Source: Candidatus Altimarinota bacterium (GTDB lineage: Bacteria > Patescibacteria > JAEDAM01 > BD1-5 > UBA2023). From it: a stretch of 5,243 nucleotides of DNA. A program made the position numbers and the translations under genes. The notes under the pieces are model-generated. The model did not search any database and was not told the DNA's origin. It saw only the letters and a program-made list of their open reading frames with translations. Where the stretch lies: the NCBI GenBank assembly GCA_018457335.1, contig JAGYHI010000054.1, forward strand, positions 1 through 5,243, read 5' to 3'. The stretch's first letter is position 1; every line of letters starts with the position of its first letter. Positions 81 to 2,642 of this stretch are shown piece by piece.

Positions 81-380
81 TTATTTAAACAAAAAAGTTT
101 CATTTTCATAAAAATGAAACTTTAGAAGAGAAGGGAATCAATCTTTTTTTTGAATTGAATCAACAAATTGAGCTATTTCCAGATCATGAGCTTCTCCAGT
201 AGGAAGAATATATACACTATCTGGAAAATCTATCTCATTTTTAAGAAGAGCCGTTAAACTTTCAAGAAAAGAGGCTTTGTCTTTCGCTTGAAATATCCAC
301 TTGGTATTATGTCCTTTAATAAAATTAGCAGCATATGAGCCAAGTGAGTTAGGATTTATAATAAGTTCTGTGTTATTCAT
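81..380 (-). CDS. Small protein of unknown function, left copy of a tandem paralogous pair (code 25)
   Basis: The start is the ATG at 380, preceded by a GGAG Shine-Dalgarno site seven bases upstream (391-388). I do not recognise the protein. It is soluble-looking, with no signal peptide or membrane segment, and has a KWIFQ motif near residue 27, then a mixed helical stretch, an FP dipeptide and an acidic end (QFVDSIQKKD). The same landmarks occur in the same order in the gene at 606-863, so the two are paralogs. The standard-code end is a TGA at 138-140 (80 aa). In this genome UGA is Gly elsewhere, so I extend the frame to the TAA at 81-83 (99 aa). The extra tail, starting GFPSLLKF, is encoded by the terminator hairpin and has no counterpart in the paralog, so the true C-terminus is uncertain. 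It appears monocistronic, with its own promoter, leader and terminator. Confidence 0.7.
94..123 (-). terminator. Intrinsic terminator of the left small gene
   Basis: A perfect 13-bp stem (94-106 with 111-123) closes a four-base loop. On the minus strand it is followed directly by a T-rich tract (TTTTTTG, then TTT), the classic rho-independent layout. The plus-strand side lacks a T tract, so it acts leftward. It overlaps the code-25 extension of the coding region at 81-380. Confidence 0.75.
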
Positions 381-484
381 ATTTTTTCTCCGAAAAAGTG
401 AAAAACAAAAAATGACAGACCCTTCACTAGCAAGAAGTTAGATCTACCATTTTTTGTATAAAGGTTTACTTACTTTTGCTAGTG
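381..484 (-). promoter_or_regulatory. Structured 5' leader RNA of the left small gene (candidate cis-regulatory RNA)
   Basis: This leader of about 103 nt runs from the predicted transcription start (A at 483) to the ATG at 380. A hairpin forms between CACTAGC (484-478) and GCTAGTG (431-425), continued inward by an AAGUA-like/UACUU-like stretch. The loop carries ACCTTT (465-460), which can pair with AAGGGT (424-419) just after the hairpin, forming a possible pseudoknot. A T-rich run and the GGAG ribosome site follow. The sequence is strongly similar to the leader at 864-970. Compared with that copy, the stem shows a compensatory C-G to T-A change, and a one-base insertion near the right arm shows it is not a conserved reading frame. 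Confidence 0.6.
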
Positions 485-489
485 GTAAT

Positions 490-517
490 ACTATATTTAA
501 ATATTTTAATTTGTCAA
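490..517 (-). promoter_or_regulatory. Sigma-70-type promoter of the left small gene
   Basis: A perfect TTGACA -35 box (517-512) is separated by 16 bases from a TATAGT -10 box (495-490). The expected start, A at 483, falls within the first base pairs of the leader hairpin. The boxes and spacing are identical in the second copy (1004-977), although the spacer sequence differs, which supports both as real. Confidence 0.8.
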
Positions 518-540
518 GTATATATTAATTTCAATTTAGA

Positions 541-590
541 AAAAATATAAAAAGCTTCAATTTTACAAAATATAAAATTGAAGCTAAAAA
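541..590 (-). terminator. Intrinsic terminator of the right small gene
   Basis: A perfect 13-bp stem (554-566 with 574-586) has a seven-base loop. On the minus strand it ends in GAAGCT and runs into a T-rich tract (TTTTATATTTTTT). It lies 20 bases beyond the TAA at 606-608 and upstream of the next copy's promoter (517), so it insulates the two units from each other. Confidence 0.8.
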
Positions 591-605
591 GGAGAGTCAT
601 TCATT

Positions 606-863
606 TTAAGAATTAAATTTTTTTTCAAGAAAATCTATAAATTGAATAAGTTCTTTGTCATATTCCTTAGTTTTATTGGGAGTTTTTACTATGTTTTTTG
701 GAAAACTTTCTTCTTTTTCAAAAAGCATCAGTATTCCATTTTTAAAAGTACTCATCTCCTCGGTCTGAAAAATCCATTTTATAGAATTATCATAAAAATA
801 TGTGGCTTGCATCATTCCGACACAGTTTTTTTGTATGACGAGTTGGTTTATTATGGTTGTCAT
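606..863 (-). CDS. Small protein of unknown function, right copy of a tandem paralogous pair (85 aa)
   Basis: I choose the ATG at 863 because an excellent GGAGGA ribosome site (876-871) lies seven bases upstream. The longer in-frame start at 935 would make the conserved RNA leader coding, and the left copy lacks that reading frame. The protein begins MTTIINQLVIQ and has no signal peptide or membrane segment. It shares with the 81-380 product the KWIFQ motif (about residues 29-33), an FP dipeptide, and a C-terminal QFIDFLEKK matching QFVDSIQKK. It ends at a clean TAA with no in-frame UGA. Divergence between the paralogs is high outside these landmarks, although the leaders are well conserved. 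I do not recognise the family and assign no function. It forms its own transcription unit. Confidence 0.8.
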   Translation of the reverse strand: MTTIINQLVIQKNCVGMMQATYFYDNSIKWIFQTEEMSTFKNGILMLFEKEESFPKNIVKTPNKTKEYDKELIQFIDFLEKKFNS

Positions 864-970
864 AATATTTTCCTCCGAAAAACTGAAAAAACAAAAAATG
901 ATAGACCCTCCACTAGTAAGAAGTAGATCCACCATTTTGCTTTTATAAAGGTTTACTTACTTTTACTAGT
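864..970 (-). promoter_or_regulatory. Structured 5' leader RNA of the right small gene (candidate cis-regulatory RNA)
   Basis: This 107-nt leader runs from the predicted start (A at 970) to the ATG at 863. The hairpin pairs ACTAGT (970-965) with ACTAGT (917-912) and continues with AAGTA against TACTT. The loop ACCTTT (952-947) can pair with GAGGGT (910-905). The downstream T-rich run and ribosome site match the left copy. Relative to that copy, the sixth stem pair changes from C-G to T-A and the closing pair from C-G to T-G, so pairing is kept. The loop core around GTAAGTAAACCTTTATA is identical in both copies. The class is unknown to me. Confidence 0.6.
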
Positions 971-976
971 AAAAAC

Positions 977-1004
977 ACTATAGTAAAAATAAATAAAATG
1001 TCAA
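977..1004 (-). promoter_or_regulatory. Sigma-70-type promoter of the right small gene
   Basis: TTGACA (1004-999), a 16-base spacer and TATAGT (982-977) place the start at about 970, the first base of the leader hairpin. The -35 box lies five bases beyond the stop codon of the membrane-protein gene at 1010-1516. No terminator separates them, so some read-through from that gene is possible. Confidence 0.8.
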
Positions 1005-1009
1005 GAAAA

Positions 1010-1516
1010 TTATACTCGAATAGTTTTTATTTTTTCTCCAAATTTTTCGTTTTTCTTTGTGATATTTTTATTGTTTAAGAAAAATCCAGTAAACATCAAA
1101 ATAAATCCAAAGAAATAAAACCAGTTATCCGTCGAAAGTGTGAAGGGAAGTGCTGAAGTAGGATTTTTTGCAATTTGTGTCAAATCAATATTTTCTGTTT
1201 TTGGAAGTGTGACAGTAGGCTCTTTATCTTCTATCAGTAAAGCAGAAATCAAAATCATCGCAACTCCAAAACCAAAAATCGTCCATTTCCAGATTTTTTT
1301 TCGGAAAAGTCCTGGATCAAAAATCGCTCGGATGAGCCCCACAGCAGGGAAGAAGTAGAGTGCATATTTGCATTCATCTGGGAGCCCCCACTCCATACGA
1401 GTCACAGGCCACCCGAAGAAAATAAAAGTAATCAAAACAAGAGCAAAAATTGCTCGATACAATCTGATTTTGAAGTCAGAAGGTTTTCACATAAGTTTTT
1501 GTGCAAGTCAAAGCAT
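1010..1516 (-). CDS. Hypothetical four-helix membrane protein (168 aa, two UGA-Gly codons)
   Basis: The protein has four hydrophobic segments at about residues 20-38, 52-67, 78-96 and 131-147. A polar loop (about 97-128, with a TQIAKNPTSALPF stretch) lies before the last helix, and the tail is lysine-rich (KKNEKFGEKIKTIRV). It is probably an inner-membrane protein; I do not recognise the family. The start needs code 25. The ATG at 1516 gives MLGLAQKLMGKPSDFKIRLY, with UGA as residues 3 and 10. An alternative ATG at 1492 gives MGKPSDFKIRLY, with UGA as the second codon. Neither has a clear Shine-Dalgarno site; I list the longer form. Under the standard code the frame would open only at a TTG at 1462, inside the first helix, which is implausible. 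It lies 38 bases after the tRNA-Gln CCA end with no promoter between them, so co-transcription is likely. It ends at TAA. Confidence 0.75.
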
Positions 1517-1554: not shown

Positions 1555-1629
1555 TGGTTGGGGTAGTAGGATTCGAACCTACGCATAGCGGATTCAGAGT
1601 CCGCGGCCTTACCACTTGGCTATACCCCA
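1555..1629 (-). tRNA. tRNA-Gln (anticodon CUG), CCA encoded
   Basis: A full cloverleaf can be drawn. The acceptor stem pairs TGGGGTA with TACCCCA, and the D arm pairs GCC with GGC. The anticodon stem GCGGA/TCCGC carries loop CTCTGAA, giving anticodon CUG, which reads CAG. The variable loop is TATGC, and the T arm is GTAGG/CCTAC around TTCGAAT. The discriminator is A (1558) and the CCA end is in the DNA (1557-1555). A tRNA-Gln(UUG) would be expected elsewhere in the genome to read CAA. Confidence 0.95.
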
Positions 1630-1679: not shown

Positions 1680-2312
1680 TTATTTCCTAATTTTTTCTCT
1701 CTGAAACAATTGAGAAATAAAATTATTTACATTTTGCATAATATCTTTATGTGGTTGTATTTCATCAAAATTTTTTCGCGAAAAATAATTAAAACTCACG
1801 ATATGATTTGATTCTCTTGTGTATTTATTATAGCCGTGATACACAGTACCACCATTTCACTTATCTGTTTTTTGAATAGTTTTTATCGAAGATTTTGTGA
1901 TAAAATACGGCTCACTTTGTGGTAAACTTTTATCTTGATATTTTCGAGTCTCACAACTGGAAAAAAACACTGAAAAGCACATATACTGCTGAGAAGAATT
2001 TTCTTTTTTGATTTTAAATCGTATACTAGTAAGTGCATCATCAGTGTAGGTCAGACAATTTTTTGGATACCAAATAATAAATCTTTTTCCTTGGATTTCG
2101 AGGGTTTCTTTTTTATCTTTATGGTTTTGTGGGAGAATTTTTTCGACTGGATTTTCGAGGGTATTACAAACTTTTTTTGGGATATTTTTCGTGATATTTT
2201 TGGATTTTGATACAGGCTTCTCGCGGGTTTTCTGTACAGAATTTAGAGCCTCCAAGGTAGGATTTCCAAAGTGGTCAAATAAGTCTTTTTGTCTAGGGTG
2301 AGCAGTTTTCAT
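1680..2312 (-). CDS. Hypothetical protein, 210 aa, one UGA-Gly codon
   Basis: The ATG at 2312 opens a frame to a TAA at 1680-1682 once the UGA at 1859-1857 (residue 152) is read as Gly, giving GNGGTVYHGYNKY around the join. The standard code would truncate it to 151 aa. The N-terminal third is polar, Lys- and Asn-rich and probably disordered. From about residue 72 (RFIIWYPKNCLTYTDD) onward it looks folded, with alternating hydrophobic strands. I do not recognise the family. There is no signal peptide or membrane helix. Residues 8-12 (QKDLF) resemble the bacterial sliding-clamp-binding pentapeptide QL[S/D]LF, which is suggestive only. No Shine-Dalgarno site precedes the start. A good promoter lies at 2367-2394, and the stop is 50 bases before the tRNA-Gln gene. 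Confidence 0.75.
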
Positions 2313-2396: not shown

Positions 2397-2642
2397 ATGA
2401 AATTTGTAATGGGTTTAATTTTGATTATACTCGGTGGAGTGATTATTCGCTATCGATATCATATTTATCATTTCACAGGTGACTGGTGATGGGCTCAGAG
2501 ATACCTTGGTGGAAATGGAACTGTCACAGCGATTAGCATGATTGGTGCAGGGCTTATTTTTATAGGATTCGCCTATCCTTTTGGGGCTTTTGATTTTGGC
2601 AATAAAAGTATGGTACCAGAGATTACGACCAGCAAAAAATAA
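2397..2642 (+). CDS. Small two-helix membrane protein, 81 aa, one UGA-Gly codon
   Basis: The ATG at 2397 opens a frame to the TAA at 2640-2642 if the TGA at 2487-2489 (residue 31) is Gly. The first helix spans about residues 2-18 (MGLILIILGGVII). A conserved-looking linker, GDWGWAQRYLGGNGT, follows at residues 29-43. The second helix runs from about 44 to 62 (ISMIGAGLIFIGFAYPF), and the tail is short and polar, ending in KK. The standard code cuts the frame at residue 30, so ordinary gene callers would miss it. The linker resembles a pattern I associate with short CPR membrane proteins, but I cannot name a family. No Shine-Dalgarno site is visible. It converges on rel with three bases between the stop codons. 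Confidence 0.75.

Follow-up and report, generated by a model that had tools for sequence, protein, structure and literature searches.

The two small genes of the analysed window (the whole stretch of DNA, 5243 bases) are each preceded by a leader RNA that probably works as a transcription attenuator and would form the very 5' end of a transcript carrying that gene alone, with one stem (S1) serving as antiterminator and a second (S2) as terminator; we put the probability of this reading at roughly 0.58. The conservation footprint of the leaders, the presence of both helices in both copies, the strand-specific preservation of their pairs and the order of folding in growing prefixes were all obtained by calculation. 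The first leader is 103 nt long (381..483, minus strand) and lies ahead of gene 1 (138..380, minus strand), which codes for an 80-aa orphan protein. The second is 107 nt long (864..970, minus strand) and precedes gene 2 (606..863, minus strand), which codes for an orphan protein of 85 aa. Besides its leader, each gene has its own promoter, a GGAG(G) site and a predicted 3' terminator (97..121 for gene 1 and 553..585 for gene 2, both on the minus strand). Because each has its own promoter and its own predicted 3' terminator, the two leader-gene units look like separate monocistronic transcripts.

Both predicted promoters lie on the minus strand and consist of TTGACA, a 16-nt spacer and TATAGT, with 11 of 12 consensus matches (490..517 in copy 1, hexamers at 517-512 and 495-490; 977..1004 in copy 2, hexamers at 1004-999 and 982-977), in a window where promoter-like sites as such are not enriched (7 against 6.9 in shuffled sequence). 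The -35 and -10 hexamers are identical between the copies, while their spacers agree at 7 of 16 positions and the six bases ahead of ACTAG at 2 of 6. Conservation resumes at ACTAG, 7 nt past the -10 box, where the conserved block of the leader starts and which corresponds to the predicted, rather than mapped, +1. From this point 94 of the 102 aligned columns are identical (92%); the other 8 are mismatches, and there are 6 gap letters besides. In the codon-aligned coding DNA of the two genes 126 of 240 positions agree (52.5%; 40, 49 and 37 of 80 at codon positions 1, 2 and 3), and the proteins share 30% identity over 76 aa. The leaders are thus far better conserved than the proteins, as the first-pass annotation had claimed, and its minus-strand coordinates were right. 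Judged from these counts, a stretch left over from duplication and evolving neutrally would not be expected to end so abruptly at functional boundaries.

Within the leader, a single base differs between the copies over nt 1-27, and nt 7-27 (AAAAGTAAGTAAACCTTTATA; 457..477 in copy 1 and 944..964 in copy 2, minus strand) are identical at all 21 positions. The last 17 nt of this stretch occur in the window only at these two sites, even with up to three mismatches allowed. Nucleotides 13-27 (AAGTAAACCTTTATA) are not only invariant but also mostly unpaired, lying outside both the 12-bp S1 and the 13-bp S2. An identical loop core had been reported earlier; this describes nt 7-27 correctly, whereas two substitutions and two indels fall in the remainder of the S1 loop.

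S1 begins at the predicted transcript start. Its 5' arm is formed by nt 1-12 (472..483 in copy 1, 959..970 in copy 2; all stem coordinates are on the minus strand), and its 3' arm by nt 46-58 in copy 1 (426..438) and nt 47-59 in copy 2 (912..924), with 12 pairs and one bulged C, as found by folding and pair analysis. S2 was found by folding and also appears in a scan for hairpins beside T-runs. Its arms are nt 31-43 and 63-75 in copy 1 (441..453 and 409..421) and nt 33-45 and 64-76 in copy 2 (926..938 and 895..907), and the 3' arm runs into a U6 tract in each case (412-407 and 898-893). The arms follow the order A-B-A'-B', so that S1 and S2 interleave. All pairs can form in both copies (12/12 in S1, 13/13 in S2), and of three outer pairs that could extend S2, copy 1 can form all three and copy 2 one. 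The hairpin described in the first-pass annotation is therefore present in both leaders, but its stem is longer than had been stated and the second hairpin, S2, had been missed.

Stem columns make up 50 of the 102 aligned columns and contain 4 of the 8 substitutions, none of which breaks a pair. In S1 a double change converts C-G to U-A, the U being carried by the 5' arm and the A by the 3' arm of copy 2; the compensatory change previously read from ACTAGC/GCTAGT against ACTAGT/ACTAGT is thus real. In S2, A-U becomes G-U and U-G becomes U-A, again with pairing retained, and the one substitution in a small CTTC/GRAG stem within the S2 loop is likewise tolerated through G-U. S2 contains three G-U pairs in each copy, each of which corresponds to a C-A mismatch on the opposite strand, so S2 is a structure of the minus-strand RNA and not a DNA palindrome. 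When the same 8 substitutions were placed at random (200,000 trials), no pair was broken in 4.0% of trials, and no pair was broken with a compensatory pair gained in 0.46%; when four transitions were required to fall in stem columns, these values became 11.9% and 3.4%, in a test devised after the helices had been seen and applied to two paralogous copies on one contig. One compensatory pair and two wobble-preserving changes in two copies make the covariation no more than suggestive, and the substitutions as a whole give moderate support to the helices. Against dinucleotide shuffles, the S1 segments reach z values of -3.2 and -3.5 (7 and 3 of 1000 shuffles equal or better) and the S2 segments -5.3 and -4.9 (0 of 1000 each). 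Leaders taken with 17-20 nt of the promoter side fold only mildly better than shuffles (z of -1.8 and -3.1; 11 and 2 of 200 shuffles match).

The terminator character of S2 was assessed with a scan, written after S2 had been seen, of all runs of at least five T on both strands having at least 50 bases upstream (n = 108), in which the hairpin was required to end beside the run. The predicted 3' terminator of gene 2 ranks first (-13.6 kcal/mol) and S2 of copy 2 second (-12.5), followed by a plus-strand hairpin inside an ORF (-9.5), S2 of copy 1 (fourth, -9.3) and, in seventh place, the predicted 3' terminator of gene 1 (-7.1); the energies given for S2 are those of the part ahead of the T-run. 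S2 of copy 2 hence stands out, and S2 of copy 1 is on a par with the ORF-internal hairpin, a probable false match. A simpler terminator scan with loops limited to 3-8 nt reported the 3' terminator of gene 2 and did not report S2. By prediction, a terminator-like hairpin followed by a U-run is present between promoter and start codon in both leaders.

In the nested folding model, to which pseudoknots are external, S1 and S2 are mutually exclusive. Folding of growing prefixes shows S1 complete at nt 60 (-14.7 and -15.2 kcal/mol), and S2 replaces it at prefix 78 in copy 1 and 75 in copy 2; in copy 1 the minimum-energy fold returns to S1 in prefixes of at least 120 nt (120 and 123, about 17 bases into the ORF). 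A co-transcriptional estimate was made for equilibrium, nested structures, assuming 10 nt hidden in the polymerase. Once 71 nt have emerged, S1 has a probability of 0.996 and 0.982 in the two copies; that of S2 rises to 0.49 at 76 nt and 0.97 at 78 nt in copy 1, and to 0.69 at 74 nt and 0.91 at 76 nt in copy 2. Blocking nt 1-12 gives the S2 core a probability of only 0.28 and 0.33 with about 68 nt out, where the RNA 3' end coincides with the end of U6, and gives S2 0.80-0.94 with 71-72 nt out, where the 3' end lies at about nt 81-82, in a second U-stretch. Given the low value at the end of U6, a stop would need to fall a few bases later, in this second U-stretch.

According to the attenuator reading, nt 1-12 (ACTAGYAA AAGT) of the emerging RNA would pair with ACTT-C-TTRCTAGT to give S1, whose loop contains the left arm of the terminator, so that S1 would act as the antiterminator. 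If S1 were prevented or opened, TGGTRGATC and GGTCTRTCA would pair into S2, a putative intrinsic terminator leading into U6, and transcription would halt ahead of the small gene. The candidate sensor is the unpaired segment at nt 13-27, through which one shared trans-acting factor (a metabolite, a protein or a small RNA) might control both paralogues. Such a common factor is likelier than control of each gene by its own product, as the proteins drifted to 30% identity while the RNA did not. Our guess is that the leader is ON by default and switches OFF once the 5' arm or S1 has been captured; the opposite sense, with S1 stabilised by a ligand, agrees just as well with these figures. Whether the leaders also stand for a novel class of leader RNA that senses a ligand or factor in code-25 bacteria of the Gracilibacteria/Absconditabacteria-like kind, with a 5'-terminal stem that senses through the invariant 15-nt unpaired segment and gates a terminator for an orphan small-protein family, is a more tentative matter, and we regard it as rather doubtful.

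The interleaved arms could also be formed together. The leader would then be an H-type pseudoknot serving as a ligand- or protein-binding aptamer, a layout like that of the preQ1 or fluoride riboswitches, and the terminator stem would be part of the aptamer instead of a competitor of S1. The A-B-A'-B' order is the one required, the 21-nt block is conserved in the manner of a binding site, and the connectors (about 22-26, 7 and 4 nt by hand count in copy 1) would allow an S1 shortened to 6-8 bp to stand beside S2. The 4-nt link GRAG is however short for spanning the full 12-bp S1, and the ACC/GGT and AG/CT pairs lengthening S1 draw on bases in or beside the left arm of S2, which makes this arrangement unlikely in our view. 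Less probable still is a DNA operator, in which the inverted ACTAGY..RCTAGT repeats downstream of the promoter would bind a dimeric repressor common to both genes. The 5' arm of S1 does lie at the predicted start site, a usual place for operators, and an operator, too, would be expected to change symmetrically in its two half-sites; yet the conservation spans the whole leader, far beyond two half-sites, and S2, which ends at a U-run, is retained through G-U pairs that are meaningless in DNA.

It also has to be weighed whether the upstream region was recently duplicated or converted, with no special RNA function beyond the promoter and the ribosome-binding site. The copies are paralogous and lie 486-487 bp apart, no other copies are known, and a conversion tract with one end at the promoter spacer and the other close to the start codon is formally still admissible. 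Against this, the flanks have diverged (7/16 in the spacer, 52.5% in the coding DNA, 37/80 at third positions), so that the block appears to have been held while its surroundings changed, and every stem substitution keeps its pair; we therefore give such an origin little credit, about as little as the operator. A leader-peptide attenuator is also unlikely, since there is no conserved short ORF with a Shine-Dalgarno site, even if translation without one is possible. The ATG frame of the leader has only four codons in common between the copies (MVDL). A GTG frame (nt 57/58; 425-427 and 911-913, minus strand) has nine, V[K/E]GLSFFVF, located after the indel, and then diverges; its start codon falls in the S2 loop, where the S1 3' arm ends, and the frame overlaps with the beginning of the gene. 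Neither frame has a Shine-Dalgarno site. The initial argument that the one-base indel excludes a leader peptide was accordingly too strong. Type III toxin-antitoxin systems of the ToxIN kind, in which tandem pseudoknot-RNA repeats lie upstream of an endoribonuclease toxin, were considered and rejected: no tandem repeat was detected in 370-1000 at score 30, and no toxin family in Pfam, NCBIfam or PADLOC matches the two proteins.

Among known devices, the BglG/LicT-type RAT and the ANTAR two-hairpin antiterminators resemble S1 in that a hairpin ties up some of the terminator stem. The RAT hairpin measures about 30 nt and overlaps the left arm of the terminator with its 3' part, whereas in the twin leaders the terminator's left arm is wholly contained in the S1 loop and the right arm of S1 in the terminator loop. 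The preQ1, fluoride and ZTP riboswitches share with the leaders the A-B-A'-B' arms and an intrinsic terminator at the end, and are absent among the Rfam matches listed for the leaders with E values up to 10. All the Rfam matches listed remain below the gathering score (for example 24.8 against 100 bits), in line with the earlier impression that no known riboswitch or leader class is involved. Relatives of the leader were not found in the collections scanned, which do not extend to CPR genomes, and a scan of a genome collection with a strict pattern was empty. A cis-acting regulatory RNA outside the Rfam families is thus the best explanation, as had been proposed, but the novelty claimed for it has to be narrowed: by its layout the device is an attenuator of a known kind, and it is the element itself, present in two copies only, that is unrecorded as far as searched.

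Gene regulation in Patescibacteria with altered codes is little known. No native riboswitch, attenuator or leader RNA for these lineages was among the matches listed in a literature search made mostly outside subscription journals, and passages of one paper (PMC11665869) present riboswitches as promising tools with no mention there of a native one. Intrinsic-terminator transcription attenuators in general (Naville and Gautheret 2010, PMC2965389) have in common with the twin leaders a terminator in the 5' leader. The twin leaders differ in an antiterminator that starts at the first predicted transcribed base and in preceding orphan genes of a code-25 bacterium. The leader was kept while the proteins drifted to 30%, which suggests that common regulation of the two genes is more important here than the precise sequence of their products. 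The element, at 100 nt, is small enough for in vitro work, and its signal, if found, would hint at the function of the two orphan genes and might yield a native regulatory part for bacteria in which genetic tools are scarce.

The two proteins are clearly related to each other (BLASTP E value of 9e-15 for the pair), and a protein database search with them returned only these two. Neither has a Pfam or NCBIfam family, PHROGs and PADLOC gave weak matches only, and a protein model with a pLDDT of 83 offers no lead on function. The leader of copy 2 is open in frame with gene 2, and a 109-aa form from the ATG at 935 (606-935, minus strand) is possible. In the protein database the 85-aa form is the one recorded, together with a contig of 14,563 bases, so a longer assembly of the region may exist. 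The Shine-Dalgarno-like sequences, GGAG at 388..391 in copy 1 and GGAGG at 872..876 in copy 2 (minus strand), are outside S1 and S2. In both copies a small hairpin (TTTTTCGGAGAAAAA and TTTTCGGAGGAAAA; 383-397 and 868-881, minus strand) has the Shine-Dalgarno bases in its loop, by way of an indel, which may be incidental.

Elsewhere in the window, a RelA/SpoT gene (4928-2646, minus strand), whose protein was assigned by NCBIfam (622 bits against a cutoff of 499), has an uninterrupted reading frame only when TGA codes for an amino acid. It contains six in-frame TGA codons, glycine under code 25; in an alignment with a Holosporales RelA two of the six stand opposite glycine and four do not. One of the two corresponds to the Gly of GVAAHF, which we take to be an invariant residue of RelA. 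This reading of TGA points, at the level of sequence, to a Gracilibacteria/Absconditabacteria-like organism. No believable family match was obtained in PHROGs or NCBIfam for a 210-aa ORF under code 25 (1680-2312, minus strand), nor a good one for the ORF at 1010-1462 (minus strand), which is longer under code 25. The latter and the ORF at 2397-2642 (plus strand) have the look of membrane proteins when judged by eye, and a tRNA-Gln with anticodon CTG is located at 1555-1629 (minus strand).
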